Source: a virus. Taken from it: DNA of 26,077 nt. Each line of letters begins with the position of its first letter. Within the stretch, counting starts at the first letter, position 1. Where the stretch lies: the IMG/VR virus record IMGVR_UViG_3300044641_002623, positions 1 through 26,077 of that record; one strand, written 5' to 3'. The notes beneath the pieces were generated by a model that was not told the origin of the DNA, ran no database searches, and worked only from the letters and a program-made list of their open reading frames with translations. Below, in pieces: positions 6,241 through 26,077 of this stretch. The position numbers and the translations under genes are program-made.

Positions 6241-6438
6241 ATTCAAGTCCAAAATCGGTCAATTCGGACATTTTAATTATGAGTTACATCACATTTGCAA
6301 AAATAAAGGTGCAATTCGGACATTATGGGCGCACTATCGGAAAATTTCATTCGATTTTTTTTCTGTATCATACATGTAAAAAATATATTAACATTTTCTT
6401 AAATCCTAAAAAGCAGTCAACTAGAATATAGGGAGGTG
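6241..6438. other. Divergent intergenic region with repeated CGGACATT
   Basis: AT-rich gap between the leftward arm and the rightward genes. It holds the CRP-type site TATGA-GTTACA-TCACA (6278-6293) and two copies of CAATTCGGACATT (about 6260 and 6311). No open frame is credible here. Confidence 0.5.
6278..6293. promoter_or_regulatory. CRP/GlxR-type operator
   Basis: TATGA-GTTACA-TCACA, nine of ten conserved positions, at the standard 67.5-bp distance from the -10 at 6218. Confidence 0.55.
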
Positions 6439-6444
6439 TATAAT
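6439..6444 (+). promoter_or_regulatory. TATAAT placed for a leaderless transcript
   Basis: Perfect -10 hexamer six bases before the ATG at 6451, so transcription would start on the A of the ATG. No good -35 is visible. A GGGAGG lies at 6430-6435, so a GTG start at 6436 with no spacing is a less likely alternative. Confidence 0.5.
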
Positions 6445-6450
6445 AAGAAA

Positions 6451-7179
6451 ATGGAACCATATGCATCTATAGTTAAAAAACAGCTTGATCAAATAGTAGC
6501 CAAAGAACCAAATGCAATACTAATTGAGAAGAATATTGTTGTATTAAAAAACTGGCTATCAGATGATCTTTGCGACAGGCTAGTAAGCCACGTAGAATCA
6601 TTTGGAGAAGATATTTGGTGGGAAAAGAATAAAAGAGAATGGTGGCATGGCAAATTCTTTTTTGTTGAAGATCCAGAACTTGATGCAGAGCTAAAACATG
6701 TGCGTATAAGGCTACAGGAGCTCTTTAACCAGGAGCTTTGGGTAGAGAGCATGAACTCTGTTCACAGAATGACTAAAGGGCAGTCTATGTTCTTACATGC
6801 TGATAATTTGGCGGAATCCCTTGGATTAGATAACAAATGCGTATTTGGTGTTACACACTATATCAGCAATTTTGACGGGGGAGAAATAACATACCCTAAT
6901 ATTAAGTTTATGTATAAACCAGAAAAGGGAGATTTACTATTACATCCTGGATGGGAAGAATATGCACACTATACAGAAGAAGTAAAAGGTGATAGAGTTA
7001 GATATATAGTAGCTGGATTTGCTTCACTTCCAGAAGCGGAAGAATTAAGAAAAAATGACCAGCTGTATGAAGGTATAGATGCAGTCAAAATGTCTAGTGC
7101 TGTAACTGGCATATTTGGAGAAAATGACCTTCCTGATGGATTCTACACAACTCCATACGATTATTTAGAAAAAAAATAA
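6451..7179 (+). CDS. 2-oxoglutarate/Fe(II)-dependent oxygenase, 242 aa
   Basis: Shows the double-stranded beta-helix core of the prolyl-4-hydroxylase type: HAD iron ligands at residues 116-118, then NFDGGEITYP, then the distal ligand His173 in YAHYTEEV and the 2-oxoglutarate-binding Arg (182 or 184) in GDRVRYIVAGF. Such enzymes hydroxylate their substrate while turning 2-oxoglutarate and O2 into succinate and CO2. The N-terminal 100 residues and the C-terminal 50 lie outside the core. The ATG at 6451 is preferred because of TATAAT six bases upstream. The substrate cannot be read from sequence. One of six such genes in this window. Confidence 0.85.
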   Translation: MEPYASIVKKQLDQIVAKEPNAILIEKNIVVLKNWLSDDLCDRLVSHVESFGEDIWWEKNKREWWHGKFFFVEDPELDAELKHVRIRLQELFNQELWVESMNSVHRMTKGQSMFLHADNLAESLGLDNKCVFGVTHYISNFDGGEITYPNIKFMYKPEKGDLLLHPGWEEYAHYTEEVKGDRVRYIVAGFASLPEAEELRKNDQLYEGIDAVKMSSAVTGIFGENDLPDGFYTTPYDYLEKK

Positions 7180-7185
7180 AAGGTA

Positions 7186-7215
7186 TTGACTTCATTAAAA
7201 GTTAAATGCTACACT
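7186..7215 (+). promoter_or_regulatory. Sigma-70-type promoter with extended -10
   Basis: TTGACT, 18-base spacer, TACACT preceded by TGC. Predicted start near 7222, about 180 bases before the next coding start. Confidence 0.6.
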
Positions 7216-7221
7216 TAGTTT

Positions 7222-7403
7222 GCTTTGTGGGGGCTTACCCTGAAACTCAATATGTACCAGATGTAATCTGTGGGTATTTCAGGAACGCTTCTCTATCTTT
7301 CCAAAAAGTTAAAATTTGGGGGGTAGGGGGGCTTTCCTAAAATCTAATATCCCCAGATAAAACTATAAAAACATAAAGAATATAAAACAAATAGGAGACA
7401 GAT
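7222..7403 (+). ncRNA. Structured untranslated leader or small RNA
   Basis: Between promoter and first gene there is no frame, but there is nested pairing: CCTGAAA (7239-7245) with TTTCAGG (7277-7283), enclosing CAGAT (7258-7262) with ATCTG (7266-7270). Two runs of six G (7318-7323, 7326-7331) follow. It may be a riboswitch-like leader, a stable small RNA, or simply a structured 5' UTR; no known class was recognised. Confidence 0.4.
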
Positions 7404-7517
7404 ATGTGCTCAAAAGAAACTTGTACCAAGTGTAATAAAGCAACATGGTCAGGATGTGGTGGACATATTGAAGAAGCTCTATCTGGAGTTTCTGAAGCAG
7501 ATCGTTGTAACTGCTAA
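7404..7517 (+). CDS. 37-aa Cys-rich zinc-binding-like peptide
   Basis: MCSKETCTKCNKATWSGCGG is followed by H at residue 21 and ends RCNC. The pattern CxKC-x-K-x-TWxGCGxHIE...RC matches a small protein family found in many actinobacteria and eukaryotes, of unknown function and probably zinc-binding. AGGAGA lies eight bases before the ATG. It is too short for usual gene finders but the motif is distinctive. Confidence 0.75.
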   Translation: MCSKETCTKCNKATWSGCGGHIEEALSGVSEADRCNC

Positions 7518-7546
7518 TTTATTTTTTAAAAAAACGGGGTAGAACA

Positions 7547-7624
7547 GTGAAACTTCTTTGCCAAATAGCCATAGTAGCTGTCATTACATTTATCCTTGGT
7601 ATATTCATACAGATAATAGGCTAA
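7547..7624 (+). CDS. 25-aa single-helix membrane peptide
   Basis: GTG start with GGGG eight bases upstream; VKLLCQIAIVAVITFILGIF and a short end, almost entirely one membrane helix. Very short, so support rests on the ribosome site and clean hydrophobic profile. Confidence 0.45.
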   Translation: MKLLCQIAIVAVITFILGIFIQIIG

Positions 7625-7629
7625 TATAA

Positions 7630-7704
7630 GGGCCTATAGCTTAATCTGGTTAAAGCAATTGTCTTATATGCAATCGACTTTGGGTTCAAATCCCAATAGG
7701 CCTA
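7630..7704 (+). tRNA. tRNA-Ile (anticodon UAU)
   Basis: A full cloverleaf of 75 bases: acceptor GGGCCTA/TAGGCCT with one G-U pair, D stem GCTT/AAGC, anticodon stem ATTGT/GCAAT with loop CTTATAT (anticodon TAT at 7665-7667), five-base variable loop, T stem TTGGG/CCCAA with loop TTCAAAT, discriminator A. No CCA is encoded. It would read AUA, a codon used often in this phage. Confidence 0.85.
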
Positions 7705-7705
7705 C

Positions 7706-7734
7706 TTGGTTTCACGTGAAACATGGAGTATAAT
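7706..7734 (+). promoter_or_regulatory. Promoter with palindrome in its spacer
   Basis: TTGGTT, 17 bases, TATAAT (7729-7734), then six bases to the ATG at 7741, so the transcript would be leaderless. The spacer is mostly filled by the parS-like palindrome at 7708-7723. Confidence 0.55.
7708..7723. promoter_or_regulatory. parS-like ParB-binding site
   Basis: GGTTTCACGTGAAACA matches the bacterial chromosomal parS consensus TGTTTCACGTGAAACA at 15 of 16 positions, with the 14-bp palindromic core exact. No parA or parB gene is visible in this window. Confidence 0.65.
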
Positions 7735-7740
7735 ACTAAT

Positions 7741-7890
7741 ATGATAGCTTATGATGTTCCTCTTTCGACCCTCCTTTTTATTATGTGGGCAGGTATTATA
7801 GTAGAGCATAAAATAGGGTCTGAGGAACAACATCTAGCTCATATGGAGTATTTGAGAAGTCTATACGAAGATGAAAATGATGGTCTCTAA
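7741..7890 (+). CDS. 49-aa small membrane-anchored protein, leaderless
   Basis: MIAYDVPLSTLLFIMWAGII gives one hydrophobic segment, followed by an acidic helical tail (EEQHLAHMEYLRS, ending LYEDENDGL). There is no ribosome site; the start lies six bases after a perfect TATAAT, as for leaderless actinobacterial genes. Function unknown. Confidence 0.6.
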   Translation: MIAYDVPLSTLLFIMWAGIIVEHKIGSEEQHLAHMEYLRSLYEDENDGL

Positions 7891-7942
7891 TTTTCGGCTC
7901 ACTTTTCGCCGCACTTTTTAGCAATCAATAAGGAGATATATT

Positions 7943-8695
7943 GTGTCTATAGAAGTTGAAATCTACAATAATAAAGTTTTTTATTTTAAGAATGCAATAC
8001 CTAATTCTGATGAAATTATAAAATATATAGAATCTGTTTCAAGCGATCTTATAACTGATTGGCTTCCGTGGGGAAATCAATATGCGTTTTCATTAGAACA
8101 AAAAAGAGACTGGGAAGCAGCAGGAATTACACCAGAAGATTTTGGTTTATCTAAATGCATATATGACCCATCTATCTTTGACCCAGATAAAAAAAATATT
8201 GAAAGTCATTGGGTTTTTGAATCTATTAACAATGCTGTTGTAGAATGCTCAAATCAATATTCAAAGCTTTTAGGCATAGATACTAATTTAAACCCTAGAA
8301 TCCCATCTTCTGGATATGTTATTGGTAAATACAACTCCATGCAATCTAGAGGATTGCACACAGACTGCCCTTATGATGACCTAGAGCACTCATTTGTCAT
8401 ATACTATAATGATGATTATTTTGATGGATATTTAAATTTTCCAAATTATAATTTACAAATAAAGCCAGAGCCTGGAAGTATAGTTATGTTTAAATCCTGC
8501 GACCTAGATAATGAACACGAAGCAGTTCCTAATATAGGTATTAAATACATAACTCCACATTTTTGGAGAATGGGTCCATCTCAAGGGTTTGTACCTTATG
8601 GATCACAAAAAGTTGAGGTTCCAGAAGATGTTATTAATGATTTTTATAATTTAGAATCGGTAGAAAAAAAGAAAAAGGAGATCTTTGGTGAATAA
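7943..8695 (+). CDS. 2-oxoglutarate/Fe(II)-dependent oxygenase, 250 aa
   Basis: GTG start with AAGGAGA six bases upstream. Core motifs: HTD at residues 139-141, YFDGYLNFPN, IKPEPGSIVMF, distal His192 in NEHEAV and Lys201 in KYITPHFW where many relatives have Arg. Belongs to the same superfamily as the gene at 6451 but is clearly diverged. Its stop overlaps the start of the next oxygenase, so the two are made together. Substrate unknown. Confidence 0.85.
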   Translation: MSIEVEIYNNKVFYFKNAIPNSDEIIKYIESVSSDLITDWLPWGNQYAFSLEQKRDWEAAGITPEDFGLSKCIYDPSIFDPDKKNIESHWVFESINNAVVECSNQYSKLLGIDTNLNPRIPSSGYVIGKYNSMQSRGLHTDCPYDDLEHSFVIYYNDDYFDGYLNFPNYNLQIKPEPGSIVMFKSCDLDNEHEAVPNIGIKYITPHFWRMGPSQGFVPYGSQKVEVPEDVINDFYNLESVEKKKKEIFGE

Positions 8696-9269
8696 GATTG
8701 ACATTGATGAAAATATTATATATATAGAAGACTTTATATCTAAAGAAGATTTAGTGCTATTTATGAATGAAATAAACAATAATTCATATATTGAAGACAA
8801 CGAGCATCCAGTTCATCTTACGCTTAAAGTGGGTAGTAACAAAGATGTTGTAAATCTTTGGTTTGAATATATTGAAAAGTTAAAAGTAATGCTGGAGTCT
8901 ACGGATAGAAAAATTAGAATACCTTCTACTGGCCAAATAGATTTTACAAAATATAGACACAGTCCCTTACCCCTTGCTGACAACCCCAATAATAAATATT
9001 TAATGGCACCTCATCAGGATGATGCTTCGTATGACTGGGAAGAAGATCAAAAGGGACCAACGTTTGTATCTCATGGAATTGTTATTTTTATTACTGACAA
9101 TTTTGATGGTGGAGAAATAGTATATGTTAATAAAGATATATCCATTAAGCCAAAAGCTGGTTCTTTACTTGTTCATCCTGGAAATCTTGATTATGCTCAT
9201 GCTGTAAATAAATTTTACAATGGAGAAAGAATAGTTTATGCAGCTTTTGTCCATGAAGATAGAAAGTAA
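8688..9269 (+). CDS. 2-oxoglutarate/Fe(II)-dependent oxygenase, 193 aa
   Basis: HQD at residues 109-111, NFDGGEIVYVN, KPKAGSLLVHPG, distal His171 in YAHAV and Arg181 in GERIVYAAF: the complete iron and 2-oxoglutarate set. GTG 8688 is preferred over TTG 8685 because the AAGGAG is then seven bases away. It overlaps the preceding gene by eight bases and is followed by a terminator. Confidence 0.85.
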   Translation: MNKIDIDENIIYIEDFISKEDLVLFMNEINNNSYIEDNEHPVHLTLKVGSNKDVVNLWFEYIEKLKVMLESTDRKIRIPSTGQIDFTKYRHSPLPLADNPNNKYLMAPHQDDASYDWEEDQKGPTFVSHGIVIFITDNFDGGEIVYVNKDISIKPKAGSLLVHPGNLDYAHAVNKFYNGERIVYAAFVHEDRK

Positions 9270-20850: not shown

Positions 20851-21822
20851 ATGGCAAATAAAAGAATAGGTAGAAAATCCTCAGCGCAGGATAACTTCTT
20901 AGAGCCAAGTGCAGTAACAAGTTTAACAGCAACAAACGTTGGAACATCACGTCCATATTTGCTAAATGCTGCTACATCAATATCAACATCTGGAGGAGCA
21001 GCTAACCTGTCTTGGACATTGCCAGCAGCCTCTCCACCAGCAACATCTTATACAATTACAACAACCCCTGCAACCTATACAGTAGTTACTGGAAACGCTA
21101 ATACCTCTTATACATTCCAGGGATTAGCTTCAGCAACAGCTTACACATTTACTGTTAGAGCGACCAATGCTGCTGGAACATCTGCTGCAACAACATCAAC
21201 TTCAGTAACTATAACAACAGTTCCACAAGCACCAAATGCGACAGTTACATCAAGTGCTGCAGGCCCAAACCCAACTCCACCTTCTGGACAAGACAGAATT
21301 ACTTTTTCTGCAAATGCAACTGGTGGATCTGCAATTCTTACTTATCAAATAACTTCAAGCGTACGTGGAAGCTTGTCAGCAAACGCAGCCTCACCATTTG
21401 ATACTACTTCTCCAAATGATGAAGTTTATTCAGTATTTGCATCAAATGCAAACGGACAATCTCTTGGGGCAACGACTGGCCCTATCGCAACATTTACACC
21501 CCCACACTTCCCACCGTTCTTCCCACCACACTTCCCACCGTTCTTCCCACCGTTCTTCCCACCATACTTCCCACCATTCTTCCCACCACACTTCCCACCG
21601 TTCTTCCCACCATTCTTCCCACCGTTCTTCCCACCGTTCTTCCCACCATACTTCCCACCGTTCTTCCCACCACACTTCCCACCGTTCTTCCCACCGTTCT
21701 TCCCACCGTTCTTCCCACCGTTCTTCCCACCACACTTCCCACCGTTCTTCCCACCACACTTTGTTGGCGGCGGCGGATTCTGTCCTTGCTGTTGCTGTGG
21801 AGGTAGTGGCTGGTTCTGCTAA
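20851..21822 (+). CDS. Fibronectin III-like protein with FFPP repeats and Cys tail, 323 aa
   Basis: Residues about 15-125 look like a fibronectin type III domain ([50 protein letters not shown]); a second, shorter beta domain follows to about 215. Residues 219-302 are 21 perfect copies of [H/F/Y]FPP. The end, residues 303-323, is glycine- and cysteine-rich with Cys 311, 313-316 and 323. No signal peptide is seen. Position after the fibre genes suggests a virion surface or tail protein. The repeat could form an extended polyproline-like rod and the cysteines a disulphide or metal-bound cap; both are inferred. Confidence 0.8.
21505..21756 (+). repeat. 21 x 12-bp minisatellite coding [H/F/Y]FPP
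   Basis: Every 12 bases read TTC/CAC/TAC, then TTC CCA CCR. The first residue runs H F H F F Y F, H F F F F Y F, H F F F F H F, so the array is also three copies of a 7-unit (84-bp) block. Confidence 0.95.
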
Positions 21823-21908: not shown

Positions 21909-22355
21909 ATGCCATACTTTGGATATGTAAGAAATGGAACAGTTAAATATGTTCAGCTTGTCACTAGCTCTACTCCAGCACAGATAAAATGGACAGCGCT
22001 AAATAGATCAGGAGTGCTCCTAAAGGAGTCAACTCATTATGATGTGATGCCAGGAGACGTATTGATAGATGGCAAATTCTATAAAAAAGATGCAGAGACT
22101 GGAGAGACTACCTTGCTAGAAGATGGAGCGTGGAGTCATCCAAAGGCAGTAAGAATTGCTGGGATTATGGATGGCGAAATCGTTGGTCAGTGGGGACTAG
22201 GAAAAGAGACGTTCACAGATCAAGCAGAGATTGATCAATTTGTAGATGATATCGTTAATTCAGAAATAGTTGAAATAGGACAAGAGCAGCAATTTGTAGT
22301 TGAAAAAGGTTGGCTTTATGATGGAGTCAATTTTACTAATCCAGACAATGCTTAA
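21909..22355 (+). CDS. Hypothetical tail-region protein, 148 aa
   Basis: MPYFGYVRNGTVKYVQLVTS begins a beta-rich protein that includes MPGDVLIDGKFYKKD, resembling small phage tail proteins or fibre chaperones, and an acidic helical C-terminus. GGAGA is six bases upstream; TAATG joins it to the next gene. Function unknown. Confidence 0.65.
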   Translation: MPYFGYVRNGTVKYVQLVTSSTPAQIKWTALNRSGVLLKESTHYDVMPGDVLIDGKFYKKDAETGETTLLEDGAWSHPKAVRIAGIMDGEIVGQWGLGKETFTDQAEIDQFVDDIVNSEIVEIGQEQQFVVEKGWLYDGVNFTNPDNA

Positions 22356-22621
22356 TGAGCGAAAAAGAAAATACTAAAAGCGCTTGGGAAAAGTATAAAG
22401 AAAATCTAGGCAGCACTAGGCCTTGGGATTTAATCAATCCAGCTACAGAATATGTAGAAAAATCGGTGTCTGAAGAAAGATACAGCATATGCGTATCATG
22501 CCCAGAATTTATGAAATCAACAAAGCAATGTAAAAAGTGCGGTTGTTTTATGGTATTAAAAACTAAGCTCAAAGATGCTGAGTGTCCAATAGGAAAATGG
22601 GGAATAACTAGTAATGTATGA
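22355..22621 (+). CDS. Zinc-binding protein, 88 aa (DUF6171-like)
   Basis: The second half carries CVSCPEFMKSTKQCKKCGCF, then MVLKTKL and CPIGKW: CxxC, CxxCxC and a final Cys around one probable zinc ion. This C..CP..CK.CGC.M..KT.L...CP.GKW pattern is a known small family in phages and bacteria with no established role. In this window it lies directly before an oxygenase gene and overlaps it by eight bases. Confidence 0.75.
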   Translation: MSEKENTKSAWEKYKENLGSTRPWDLINPATEYVEKSVSEERYSICVSCPEFMKSTKQCKKCGCFMVLKTKLKDAECPIGKWGITSNV

Positions 22622-23276
22622 AAAAGAAGAGCTGTTTCCAGGGCTTTGGGTATATAGAAATGTAATTACTCCAGAAATGGATATAATAAATAGGCTAGAA
22701 AATGCTATATCTAATTCCAAAGGCATGCATACTTGGAAAGAAGCAACAGTAGGATATAGAGAAAAAATGCCTGACTATAGAGACTGTGTAGATTTTAAAT
22801 GGAAAAAGTTTGAAGAAAGCAATCCTCTAGATAAGTACAATAAAGACGTAGATGAAATTTGGCAAGACGTGCATGACGTACAACTTGTTGCACTAGATGA
22901 TTATTCTTCTTTTTACAATATTGAATTAAAGTATTGGGAAGCCATGAATTTTATTAAATATGGCGAAGGCCAACATTTCTCTTATCACTCAGACCATGGT
23001 TGGTCTTATATATCAACAGTATCAATGGTTGCTTATATTAATGATGATTATGAAGAGGGCGGACTAAGATTTGATAAGTTAGACTTAACAGTAAAGCCAA
23101 AAGCTGGAGATCTGTATATATTCCCCTCAACATATTTATTCTCACATGCTGCCCTTCCAGTAAAGTCTGGATTAAAATATTCAATAGTTACAATGACAGA
23201 CTATAATGATGCAACTCATACAGAATCATTTTACAGGCAATTTATGTCTGAAAAATCAATGAAAGATGGGTACTGA
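22614..23276 (+). CDS. 2-oxoglutarate/Fe(II)-dependent oxygenase, 220 aa
   Basis: HSD at residues 125-127, YINDDYEEGGLRF, KPKAGDLYIFPS, distal His178 in SHAALPV and Lys188 in KYSIVTMTD. Complete core of the prolyl-4-hydroxylase type, with a Lys in place of the usual Arg for 2-oxoglutarate. Overlaps both neighbours, so made with them. The genes of this operon follow the fibre genes directly. Confidence 0.85.
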   Translation: MYEKEELFPGLWVYRNVITPEMDIINRLENAISNSKGMHTWKEATVGYREKMPDYRDCVDFKWKKFEESNPLDKYNKDVDEIWQDVHDVQLVALDDYSSFYNIELKYWEAMNFIKYGEGQHFSYHSDHGWSYISTVSMVAYINDDYEEGGLRFDKLDLTVKPKAGDLYIFPSTYLFSHAALPVKSGLKYSIVTMTDYNDATHTESFYRQFMSEKSMKDGY

Positions 23277-24010
23277 TGAACTTTGATGTCTATAAAGTTT
23301 ATCCAAATCAATCAGCAAATATTCAACCTCTAGGTGTTAAAAGAGAGTGGATGGATGAAACTTTTGACAAGCATGCATACCACTGCTTCCCAGTAAGCTT
23401 ATCAAATACTTTGGGGTGGGGAGTTTCATTTCCAGTAGATATATCATTTATTTGGGATGGGATATCAGACTCAACAGATACACACGTTAAAGTTTTAAAA
23501 GGGCATGAATATGTATCAACTTCAAGAGCTAACGCAACAATTAGTTTTAATACAAACCTGGTTATAAGAACTGAAGAAGATGTTACCATGTTGGCAATGC
23601 CAACACCAAATTGGCCTATAGAAGGTGTTTGGCCATTTACTACACTAATAAGCACTTCATTTTTTAAGGGGGCATTCCCAATTGCCTGGAGAATAACTAA
23701 GGCAAATGAAATTATTACAATTCCAGCAAACACACCAGTTGCAGCAATAATGCCAATCTCCTTGGCAAATTTAAATAATTCGGTGGCGGTAATAAAAGGA
23801 TACAAGGATTTACCAGTAGACTTTTTCCCAAAAGAGGACTATGGACAAATTGTTAGCGATATCAATAAGTCTGGCAAATGGAGTGATTTTTATAGAAATG
23901 CTGTAGATCATAAAAATAATAAAATTGGATCCCATGAAGTAAAATCTTTAAGGTTAAAGAATGATGAAACTTTGATTAATGGTCCAGAAGGTTGCGGTAT
24001 ACCACAATGA
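23276..24010 (+). CDS. Unrecognised protein, 244 aa, DUF6065-like
   Basis: AYHCFPVSLSNTLGWGVSFP, then ISFIWDGISD, TEEDVTMLAMPTPNWP, GAFPIAWRITKANEIITIPA and VAAIMPISLANL. The motifs CxP...N..GW..FP and W.G resemble the phage/bacterial family DUF6065, of unknown function; this match is from memory and is low confidence. Probably a beta-barrel fold. Overlaps neighbours on both sides. Confidence 0.6.
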   Translation: MNFDVYKVYPNQSANIQPLGVKREWMDETFDKHAYHCFPVSLSNTLGWGVSFPVDISFIWDGISDSTDTHVKVLKGHEYVSTSRANATISFNTNLVIRTEEDVTMLAMPTPNWPIEGVWPFTTLISTSFFKGAFPIAWRITKANEIITIPANTPVAAIMPISLANLNNSVAVIKGYKDLPVDFFPKEDYGQIVSDINKSGKWSDFYRNAVDHKNNKIGSHEVKSLRLKNDETLINGPEGCGIPQ

Positions 24011-24726
24011 ACAAGATAACATTCCACTCCAATAAACATTATAATGATGAAGAAACAGCACCCTGCCCAACCGCAAAGGTTATACCAAAATGGTGGCACG
24101 ATGCTGATATTTATATAAAAGATTTTTATGGTAATCCAGTTTCTAATGCAACAAATGACGGCGGAAAAATGCTTAACTTCAAAGCCTGTCCAGCAATGCT
24201 AGATACATTTACAACAGGCTACACTCTTGTCACTCCATGCGATATAGAGTTTTATGAAAAAAATAATAGAATTAAAGCAAAGGTACCACTAAAATTTGAT
24301 GATTTTGTTGGTGAAAGACCAGCATCTGATGGGTTCCAGGTTCCTTTCGGTTATGATAAAAATCATTTTCATTGGTATGCTAACTGGGCCCCACAGCTAC
24401 CAGAAGGTTACAGCTCTCTATATGTTCAGCCAATAAATCATTTTGATTTACCATGGCTTACTGTCGGTGGTATAATAGATAGTGACAAAGTTACAACATC
24501 TGGCTTAATACCGTTTTTTATACAAAATGGATTTACTGGGGTTGTTCCAGCAGGAACTCCTTATCTACAGATAATACCATTCAAAAGAGAAGACTGGGAG
24601 TCGGAATTTATTTTTCATAAACCGATTGATATAATGCAAAAGGCTATGAAAACATCAGATATGTTTAGAACACCAGAAGGTGGAGTCTATAAAAAGAAGT
24701 TTTGGACTAGAAGGAGATACAAATAA
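24007..24726 (+). CDS. Unrecognised protein, 239 aa, related in layout to its neighbour
   Basis: Motifs APCPTAKVIPKWWHDADIYI, FKACPAMLDTFTTGYTLVTP, CDIEFYEKNNRIKAKVPL, PFGYDKNHFHWYANWAPQLP and GVVPAGTPYLQIIPF. The last, the CD/VDI.F element and the order of segments echo the preceding gene, so the two may be distant paralogues or form one complex. ATG 24007 overlaps the previous stop (ATGA); an upstream in-frame TTG is less likely. Confidence 0.6.
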   Translation: MNKITFHSNKHYNDEETAPCPTAKVIPKWWHDADIYIKDFYGNPVSNATNDGGKMLNFKACPAMLDTFTTGYTLVTPCDIEFYEKNNRIKAKVPLKFDDFVGERPASDGFQVPFGYDKNHFHWYANWAPQLPEGYSSLYVQPINHFDLPWLTVGGIIDSDKVTTSGLIPFFIQNGFTGVVPAGTPYLQIIPFKREDWESEFIFHKPIDIMQKAMKTSDMFRTPEGGVYKKKFWTRRRYK

Positions 24727-25416
24727 ATGGAACAAAGATTGAACACTAATAATACTCATGACTACAGATCTTTAGGTTCTATAACGCCTTCTGGATTCTT
24801 TGGGTCAGGTCCAGAAAACATTGTAGAGCTAAAAAACTTTTTAACTGATGAAGAAAGAGTAAGGCTCACCGACTTTGCAAAAAATAATACAACCTGGGAT
24901 ATCACTGATTCTCACGTAAATGAGAATGGTACCGTAATCTATGATGCAAACGCATGGTTTGATAGAGTTTGTACACGCAGATCTATGGAGATTTCTGCGG
25001 ACCCAACTATAGTTGATGTTGTCGATAATCTTATATCAAGGCTACAGGTAGAGGTAGAAAAGTTTTTTAATGTACATGTTCAAGCAACTGGACCAGCTAT
25101 TGTTAGGTGGCCAGTCGGATCAAGACAAGACCCACATGCAGATAAAGAGCTTCATGAAGGCCCAGACGCAGGAACACCTAACGATTTCCCACATTACGAT
25201 ATAGCTTCCCTATTTTATTTTAACGACGACTATGAAGGTGGAGAACTATTTTTCCCAATACAGGGAATAGAGTTTAAGCCAGTTGGTGGATCAGCATACT
25301 TTTTCCCAGGAGATAAAAACTATATTCATGGCGTTAGGCCAATAATTTCTGGAGGAAGATATACGTCACCATTCTTCTGGCAAATACTAGAGCATACTGG
25401 AGAAAGACAGCCATGA
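24727..25416 (+). CDS. 2-oxoglutarate/Fe(II)-dependent oxygenase, 229 aa
   Basis: HAD at residues 137-139, FYFNDDYEGGELFFP, FKPVGGSAYFFPG, distal His201 in YIHGVRP and Arg211 in GGRYTSPFFW. All catalytic residues are present. AAGGAGA 11 bases before the ATG, which comes straight after the previous stop. Substrate unknown. Confidence 0.85.
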   Translation: MEQRLNTNNTHDYRSLGSITPSGFFGSGPENIVELKNFLTDEERVRLTDFAKNNTTWDITDSHVNENGTVIYDANAWFDRVCTRRSMEISADPTIVDVVDNLISRLQVEVEKFFNVHVQATGPAIVRWPVGSRQDPHADKELHEGPDAGTPNDFPHYDIASLFYFNDDYEGGELFFPIQGIEFKPVGGSAYFFPGDKNYIHGVRPIISGGRYTSPFFWQILEHTGERQP

Positions 25417-26077
25417 GTTTTATTTACAAAGAGATATATCCAAAGATATGGGTCTTTAAAAATCCATGGAAAGACATCGACCTATTAACAAAAACAATAA
25501 TTGATTCGGAACAAAACCCAGAAGGCTCTGCTTTAAATTGGCATGGCTGGTACACCTTTGGAAAAGAAGCTGATCAGTTTAACCATTCAATTGAATCATC
25601 TGAAAGAACTGAATTGGAAAAACGTTTCTGGGATGAAATAATTGAGGTTTTTAATAAAACAACAAGTCAGTATGCGGATACGTTTGGCGTACCAATTGAT
25701 AGAGACGCAATAGTTTTTGATGAAGGCTCTGGAACTGATGAGCTTATGTGGAAAAGAATGGGACCTTCAATATGTAAGTATGAAGTCGATGGAGGAATTG
25801 AAGAGTCCGACCTTGCAATGCACGTACATACAGACTACCAAAGAGACTATCATGATTTTAGAGGATATAAGTTTACGTTTACCTGTACTATGTATTTAAA
25901 TGGAGACTATGAGGGCGGAGGACTTACTTTTTTGGTAGACAATAAAACTGTTTATTACAAACCAGAAAAGGGCGACATTTTGTTATTCCCAGCAGGAGAC
26001 CCAGATTTTCTTTCCGATGCTGGACAATTTTATATGCATGGAGTTGAAAAAGTTAAGGGCACCCCTAAGTATTTTGT
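25413..26077 (+). CDS. 2-oxoglutarate/Fe(II)-dependent oxygenase, 3' end cut by window
   Basis: ATG overlaps the previous stop (ATGA). Begins MSFIYKEIYPKIWVFKNPWK; HTD at residues 139-141, YLNGDYEGGGLTF, KPEKGDILLFPAG, distal His209 in MHGVEKV and Lys219 in PKYFV. No stop is reached by base 26077, so at least 221 residues. Sixth oxygenase of the window. Confidence 0.85.
   Translation, partial: MSFIYKEIYPKIWVFKNPWKDIDLLTKTIIDSEQNPEGSALNWHGWYTFGKEADQFNHSIESSERTELEKRFWDEIIEVFNKTTSQYADTFGVPIDRDAIVFDEGSGTDELMWKRMGPSICKYEVDGGIEESDLAMHVHTDYQRDYHDFRGYKFTFTCTMYLNGDYEGGGLTFLVDNKTVYYKPEKGDILLFPAGDPDFLSDAGQFYMHGVEKVKGTPKYF

Follow-up and report, generated by a model that had tools for sequence, protein, structure and literature searches.

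Virus-encoded prolyl and lysyl hydroxylases that occur together with viral collagen-like substrates are known from mimivirus L230 and related enzymes (PMC9546862), and a prolyl 4-hydroxylase is encoded by Chlorella virus PBCV-1 (as cited in PMC9301287). Among bacteriophage proteins, PHROG 61 resembles the prolyl hydroxylase EGLN3 (Phold paper, PMC12774648), and a repair role was proposed for 2-oxoglutarate (2OG) oxygenases of cyanophages (PMC2984593). In the protist Skp1 pathway, Gnt1 attaches N-acetylglucosamine (GlcNAc) to hydroxyproline formed by a prolyl hydroxylase (PMC6939170). Hydroxylation of fibre-like proteins is already known in large eukaryotic viruses; 2OG oxygenases of phages have been described, but no substrate has been assigned to them. 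Here we analyzed a viral DNA stretch of 26,077 nucleotides (IMG/VR record IMGVR_UViG_3300044641_002623; hereafter the window), the right part of which contains an operon of 2OG-Fe(II) oxygenases, a small cysteine-rich protein (Zn) and two related proteins of predicted dUTPase fold (D1 and D2). The operon lies next to a gene for a proline-rich repeat protein, which is its probable substrate.

Among open-licence papers, none was found on DUF6065 (PF19541), on DUF6171 (PF19668), on the combination DUF6065-SapC-halogenase or on a link between phage prolyl hydroxylases and proline-repeat fibres; PHROG 61 alone was covered.

Oxygenase operon and its proline-rich neighbour

Three 2OG-Fe(II) oxygenases are encoded on the plus strand, as are the other genes of the operon and the adjoining repeat-protein gene: OxA (22614–23276), OxB (24727–25416) and OxC (25413–26077, truncated by the window end). 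All three match phrog_61 and exceed the 27-bit cut-off of 2OG-FeII_Oxy_3 (PF13640), with 46.8, 29.3 and 32.5 bits, respectively. In the alignment rows with letters, the HxD...H iron ligands and a basic residue are invariant in OxA (H125/D127/H178/K188, 37/37), OxB (37/37) and OxC (35/35); K188 of OxA, R211 of OxB and K219/R223 of OxC are the probable 2OG anchors. In sequence, the closest solved structures were prolyl 4-hydroxylase 3itq/5hv0 (E 1.3e-4) and lysyl hydroxylase LH3 for OxA, and a PiuC-type hydroxylase and prolyl 4-hydroxylase (E 5.5e-3) for OxB. An oxygenase of the viral relative L306 likewise matches solved prolyl 4-hydroxylases. Such relatives are IMG/VR contigs of up to 120 kb, and four of them, 106–115 kb long, contain 7–10 PF13640 matches each.

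Upstream of the operon lies the gene of a 323-aa protein (20851–21822), named here FPP protein, which consists, in this order, of a fibronectin type III domain (E 1.1e-10), a series of [F/H/Y]FPP tetrapeptides and a tail of Gly and Cys. We propose it as the candidate substrate. Its repeats vary among viruses (FFPP, FAPPG, YNPPV, FCPFFPN, PYSFT), remaining proline/aromatic. Of the 83 distinct homologues with a length of 240 aa or more, 82 have at least 10 prolines in a 40-residue window. In the window the repeats contain no Lys, Asp or Asn.

The distribution of the genes was studied in scans with D1 (52 contigs), D2 (58 contigs) and OxB, FPP and Zn (the best 80 loci each). Duplicate contigs were taken out of the D1 and D2 scans by hand, using contig names. 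One OxB locus beginning inside OxB (1/80), FPP loci with less than 4 kb downstream (12/80) and Zn loci with less than 1.2 kb upstream (24/80) were left out of the counts. An oxygenase-type gene directly precedes D1 in all 48 evaluable loci of the D1 scan. A second D-type gene follows in 51/52 of the loci, OxB is found downstream in 51/52 and OxC in 49/50; upstream, Zn is present in 39/46 and FPP in 24/25. The missing cases of the second D gene, OxB, OxC and FPP are due to one relative (L053), a lone D1 inside a replication region. In the OxB and FPP scans, a D1/D2-type gene was present directly upstream of OxB in 79/79 evaluable loci and downstream of FPP in 68/68 (D1 in 66, only D2 in 2). D2 is absent from seven relatives; in L044 the gene at its place is nearer to D1, L082, L083 and L090 have an additional D2 copy, and L102 contains a lone D2 inside a replication region.

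The Zn gene (22355–22621) served as an independent bait. Its small product with six cysteines belongs to DUF6171 (28.4 bits against a cut-off of 27; phrog_13558) and probably binds zinc, judging by the cysteine pattern. Up to two upstream genes per Zn locus were tested for proline content (one gene in 51 loci, two in 5). A protein with at least 12 prolines per 40 residues was encoded directly upstream in 49 of the 56 evaluable loci, and only 4 of 541 other genes of these loci conformed to the same criterion (Fisher test 3e-59, a value that ignores relatedness). With the nearest upstream gene alone the count was 48/56. After removal of near-identical Zn proteins it was 33/40, while random genes of the same loci gave a mean of 0.48 and a maximum of 3 (2000 draws). 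The upstream repeats were of the types PTPTPT, APTPAP, VTPVTP, FFPP and similar. An oxygenase-type gene was located within 700 bp after Zn in 55/80 loci, 44 of them without a D gene.

Four sugar-related genes from L280, L304 and L306 were used as similarity queries, and one or more of them had a counterpart downstream in 37 of 65 Zn loci with at least 4 kb of sequence; 35 of these 37 were free of D genes. One query, with a FucT-like label, had no Pfam match. The queries include a GlcNAc transferase of PF11397 (E 4e-52), a family which we take to be GT60, as well as a GT61 protein and an epimerase. The same queries found nothing in the 52 D1-scan loci and the 80 FPP-scan loci. Two side observations concern Zn loci: in L328 and L343 a relative of the GlcNAc transferase directly follows Zn and an adjoining oxygenase was not found, and in Synechococcus phage S-SRM01 (L466, 1890–3347) a tryptophan halogenase gene (PF04820, E 8e-84), flanked by tail fiber and adhesin tip genes, adjoins the Zn homologue.

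Downstream of FPP, after a gap of 86 bp, seven genes (T0, Zn, OxA, D1, D2, OxB and OxC) are located between 21909 and the window end, and all six junctions are overlapping or abutting. The distances, given as the number of bases between two reading frames with negative values for overlaps, are −1 for T0/Zn (TAATG), −8 for Zn/OxA, −1 for OxA/D1 (TGATG), −4 for D1/D2 (ATGA), 0 for D2/OxB (TAAATG) and −4 for OxB/OxC (ATGA). In the relatives from the D1 scan, an overlap or a gap of at most 10 bp was found at OxA-D1 in 49/49, D1-D2 in 50/50, D2-OxB in 48/50, OxB-OxC in 49/50 and Zn-OxA in 35/39 cases. The ratio of nonsynonymous to synonymous substitution rates (dN/dS) in comparison with five relatives was 0.02–0.11 for OxA, D1, D2 and OxB (one D2 value was saturated), which corresponds to purifying selection; therefore, these are genuine genes. 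Among the 38 D1-scan loci that are long enough, 34 have six oxygenase-type genes in the 6.5 kb following D1. In L010, for instance, three further oxygenases, all confirmed by Pfam, come after OxC, as does a weak 181-aa relative without a Pfam match. Thus, the operon extends at least from 21909, and in relatives it runs beyond the part seen in the window by three to four oxygenase-type genes.

An initial annotation of the window had described an operon at 22355–26077 with three oxygenases, headed by a zinc protein with a characteristic cysteine pattern. Its reading frames and its overlapping or abutting junctions were borne out, and the operon is real. The proposed extent was too short, since OxC is unfinished and more oxygenases follow in relatives, and Zn does not head the set: it is overlapped from upstream by T0 (21909–22355), a protein of 148 aa that matched no family significantly and may have an accessory role. 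The proposed modification pathway of undescribed chemistry stands in outline, while its probable substrate, encoded at 20851 just outside the annotated region, had been missed. The products had also been thought to be needed together. This is supported for the core, as D1/D2, OxB and the upstream oxygenase nearly always occur together. For single members, independent occurrence, which the annotation had named as the counter-evidence, was revealed in part: Zn is mostly found without D genes, D1 and D2 each occur alone (L053 and L102), haloarchaeal viruses have D2, and seven relatives lack it. Membership of Zn in a D1/D2 unit was rejected, as 63 of the 80 Zn-scan loci contain no D1/D2 at all.

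Several further observations were made in the course of this work. OxC (25413–26075) shows low synonymous divergence (pS) from L013 and L020, 0.10 and 0.22, compared with about 0.5 in neighbouring genes, which suggests that the OxB/OxC border is a site of recent recombination. Three more 2OG oxygenase genes, two of them under the Pfam cut-off, adjoin a tRNA-Ile gene at 6436–9269 of the window. Hint or intein-splicing-like domains follow the repeats in the FPP homologues of L252, L264 and L411 (E about 1e-3, under Pfam cut-offs). In Synechococcus phage S-IOM18 (L462, 4748–5353) a gene named 'DNA endonuclease V' is situated after the Zn homologue; this label may be wrong group-wide, because PHROGs so named match the 2OG oxygenases of the window.

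D1 and D2, paralogues of predicted dUTPase fold

D1 (23276–24010) is a member of DUF6065, with 111.4 bits against a cut-off of 26.6, as the initial annotation had suggested. For D2 (24007–24726, phrog_7084) Pfam gave nothing up to E 1, and the protein is tied to DUF6065 via profile-profile comparison only. Direct comparison of D1 with D2 by hhalign gave E 3.4e-5, and comparison of the bacterial and phage DUF6065 alignment with the wide D2 clan, which includes phage, haloarchaeal-virus and bacterial sequences, gave E 6.9e-12. By these profiles D1 and D2 form one superfamily and are distant paralogues, in agreement with the earlier suggestion. Neither protein was matched in NCBIfam, sequence comparison with solved structures gave nothing below E 1, D1 had no match among phage isolates, and a contig scan of genomes with the phage D1 alignment detected no relative.

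Both proteins had been called barrel-like; structure prediction was run, and this description can now be replaced by a predicted dUTPase fold. The AlphaFold models had a mean pLDDT (predicted local distance difference test) of 77 and a pTM (predicted template modelling score) of 0.76 for D1, and of 87 and 0.81 for D2. For each model, 50 Foldseek matches to solved structures were listed; those of D1 were dUTPases throughout (best E 7.4e-5), and every one of D2 was either a dUTPase or a dCTP deaminase (best E 8.7e-4). VIA-align gave Z 11.2 (2.6 Å, 124 residues) for the D1 model and Z 9.9 (2.8 Å, 120 residues) for the D2 model; it is not independent of Foldseek, because its structures were taken from Foldseek's own list. 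By the models, D1 and D2 are both predicted to have the dUTPase fold. We also considered them as additional jelly-roll oxygenases and rejected this, since the models match dUTPases and no jelly-roll match was present among the rows listed.

At the sequence level the similarity to dUTPases is weak. Neither D1 nor D2 matched PF00692 (dUTPase) up to E 1. Comparison of the D2 clan with six dUTPases gave E 8e-4 with a probability of just 24 percent; the phage-weighted D2 alignment gave E 5e-3, and DUF6065 gave E 0.07. In the weak register of the hhalign match, GxxD of D2 falls on GxxD of dUTPases (motif 3) and GTPxxQ on GDRIAQ (motif 4). In this register, Gly and Asp of motif 3 and Gln of motif 4 are each present in 31/31 D2 sequences. 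In D1, Ser replaces the Asp of motif 3 in 26/26 sequences, and Ser, Ala or Cys stands in place of the Gln. The Gly-rich C-terminal motif 5 was not seen in D2 by inspection.

Outside phages, DUF6065 was found in 37 of 289 sampled Alphaproteobacteria, in 34 of them over the cut-off. Its fusion partner is a Cupin_8/JmjC 2OG hydroxylase domain in 5/80 loci found by pattern and in 4/32 sampled alphaproteobacterial loci, and SapC in one locus. SapC, JmjC-like hydroxylases and halogenases were reportedly discussed by Iyer and colleagues (2010) as components of peptide-modification neighbourhoods. In Rhizobiales and a few others, the gene before DUF6065 encodes an autotransporter, in many cases one that contains a polyproline stretch (15/80 pattern-found loci), and a proline-rich neighbour was revealed in 14 of 63 pattern-found loci having a same-strand open reading frame (ORF) directly upstream. 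Sphingomonas locus L187 has both the autotransporter neighbour and the Cupin_8/JmjC fusion, and in an Ochrobactrum plasmid a gene for a collagen-like repeat protein lies directly upstream of DUF6065. A general link between DUF6065 and polyproline autotransporters was dropped as an argument; the bacterial association with proline is lineage-restricted, because it was not found in any of the 32 loci of the even sample. Apparent N-terminal fusions in L484, L493 and L494, which have no Pfam match, were attributed to out-of-frame extension of the reading frames in GC-rich DNA. The D2-like genes of bacteria in L451–L457 often follow an ABC transporter operon and adjoin a convergent TPR-like repeat gene (labels assigned by eye), and in Sinorhizobium (L460, 5728–7274) the D2-like gene is convergent with an ORF bearing long SSSN repeats. 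Haloarchaeal tailed viruses have a D2 homologue near the gene for thymidylate synthase or ribonucleotide reductase.

Proposed role of the operon and rival explanations

From the gene order, protein families, residue conservation, predicted folds and co-occurrence described above we infer the substrate, the modified residue, the protein interactions and the role of D1/D2. With moderate confidence we favour the view that the operon is a cassette of the tail-fibre module which hydroxylates the FPP repeats post-translationally. OxA, OxB, OxC and the oxygenases located past the window would act on the proline/aromatic repeats of the upstream FPP protein, most likely on proline, aromatic residues being possible targets too. 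Zn would be a small metal-binding partner accompanying the repeat-modifying enzymes. That D1 and D2 are a dUTPase-fold accessory pair within the cassette is a more tentative part of the proposal. They would probably form a hetero-oligomer in which D2 retains the ligand-binding motifs and D1 is the degenerate partner, and may bring the repeat to the oxygenases or act on the residue after its hydroxylation.

Several findings weigh against this view. The viruses are related, hence the co-occurrence counts are not independent events. At least two of the proteins upstream of Zn, those of L328 and L343, are Thr-rich (TTTTT, TTTTTQAP) and not Pro-rich. No adjoining Pro-rich protein was found by sequence in five regions around Zn relatives of cyanophage isolates, and the annotation of the Zn region of Stenotrophomonas phage Moby shows no Pro-rich context. 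A proline-rich neighbour of DUF6065 was absent from the even Alphaproteobacteria sample (0/32), and the profiles used revealed no separate gene for an oxygenase in the neighbourhood of bacterial DUF6065 (0/80 and 0/32 loci). Bacterial D2-like genes often adjoin an ABC transporter operon. The haloarchaeal D2 homologues have no Pro-rich neighbour, and PF13640 oxygenases were not found in the two haloarchaeal viruses searched.

The transporter neighbours would suit a cassette that makes a small molecule or modifies the host surface, with the repeat fibre next to it by position only, as part of an adhesin module that evolves fast. Adhesin modules commonly hold repeats, and six or more oxygenases seem many for a single repeat substrate. 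We nevertheless consider this unlikely, since the proline-rich neighbour is specific (49/56 against 4/541 in the Zn loci), a D-type gene adjoins FPP in all 68 evaluable loci, and proline is retained while the repeat types vary. It is still harder to accept that the targets of the oxygenases are not the proline repeats but other tail-fibre proteins encoded in this region, with residues such as Asp/Asn or Lys being modified. Several long fibre genes are indeed located upstream of FPP, OxA also matches LH3, and in L010 a Laminin_G fibre gene follows the oxygenase array; against this stand the strong enrichment of a Pro-rich protein as neighbour, the sole neighbour type tested, and the lack of Lys, Asp and Asn in the FPP repeats of the window.

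Finally, D1 and D2 could be nucleotide hydrolases, either true or diverged ones, of the dUTPase or dCTP-deaminase-like kind in an operon that modifies, with its oxygenases included, nucleotides or DNA bases. The predicted fold fits such a role, as does the fact that PF00692 was not found in the four relatives of 106–115 kb. This explanation retains some weight because D2 keeps dUTPase-like GxxD and Gln motifs and because homologues occur near nucleotide or replication genes (haloarchaeal viruses, lone D1, lone D2). It appears improbable to us, as D1 lacks the catalytic acid throughout, neither protein matches PF00692, motif 5 was not seen, and HRTV-5 carries a separate dUTPase. Moreover, the cassette is situated in the tail-fibre region, adjoining the repeat protein, and OxA and OxB resemble protein hydroxylases.

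Returning to hydroxylation of the FPP repeats, a broader and rather doubtful hypothesis can be added. Freshwater phages may make hydroxyproline-rich, extensin-like fibres, in which dedicated 2OG oxygenases would hydroxylate Pro/aromatic or Pro-Thr/Pro-Ala repeats. The hydroxylated repeats would next be glycosylated, in the loci with a GlcNAc transferase, or be handled by the pair of degenerate and motif-bearing dUTPase-fold proteins. DUF6065 and related proteins would then be derived from dUTPases and have taken on peptide modification, both in phages and, as fusions with JmjC hydroxylases, in bacteria. Our data offer a candidate substrate for the 2OG oxygenases of PHROG 61, which is among the commonest unexplained phage gene families, supply a predicted fold for the unexplained DUF6065 and phrog_7084, and suggest that bacteriophages produce fibres which are rich in hydroxyproline and possibly glycosylated. 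If so, abundant freshwater phages would depend on oxygen, iron and 2-oxoglutarate for receptor binding.

Comparison with described systems

The locus is similar to the collagen hydroxylation systems of large viruses in combining virus-encoded 2OG hydroxylases with virus-encoded repeat proteins. It differs in that the repeats there are Gly-X-Y, whereas here phages have [FHY]FPP, PTPT or similar repeats and many oxygenases per locus. To our knowledge, the two proteins of predicted dUTPase fold have no counterpart in the large-virus systems. OxA, OxB and OxC match the PHROG 61 oxygenases, for which neither a substrate nor a neighbourhood is proposed in the accessible text of the Phold paper (PMC12774648).

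The Skp1 pathway is resembled by Zn-type loci without D genes, in which a prolyl 4-hydroxylase-type oxygenase is paired with a GlcNAc transferase of PF11397; the D1/D2 loci differ from it in having none of the four sugar-gene queries. With dUTPases and dCTP deaminases, D1 and D2 share the predicted fold, and in D2 the residues resembling motifs 3 and 4 fall in register in the weak hhalign match. They differ from these enzymes in the lack of a PF00692 match, in the degeneration of D1, in the greater length of the proteins and in their peptide-oxygenase context. Compared with the bacterial DUF6065 fusions to Cupin_8/JmjC and SapC, the phage D1 belongs to the same family but is a stand-alone protein, encoded together with prolyl 4-hydroxylase-type oxygenases and its partner D2.

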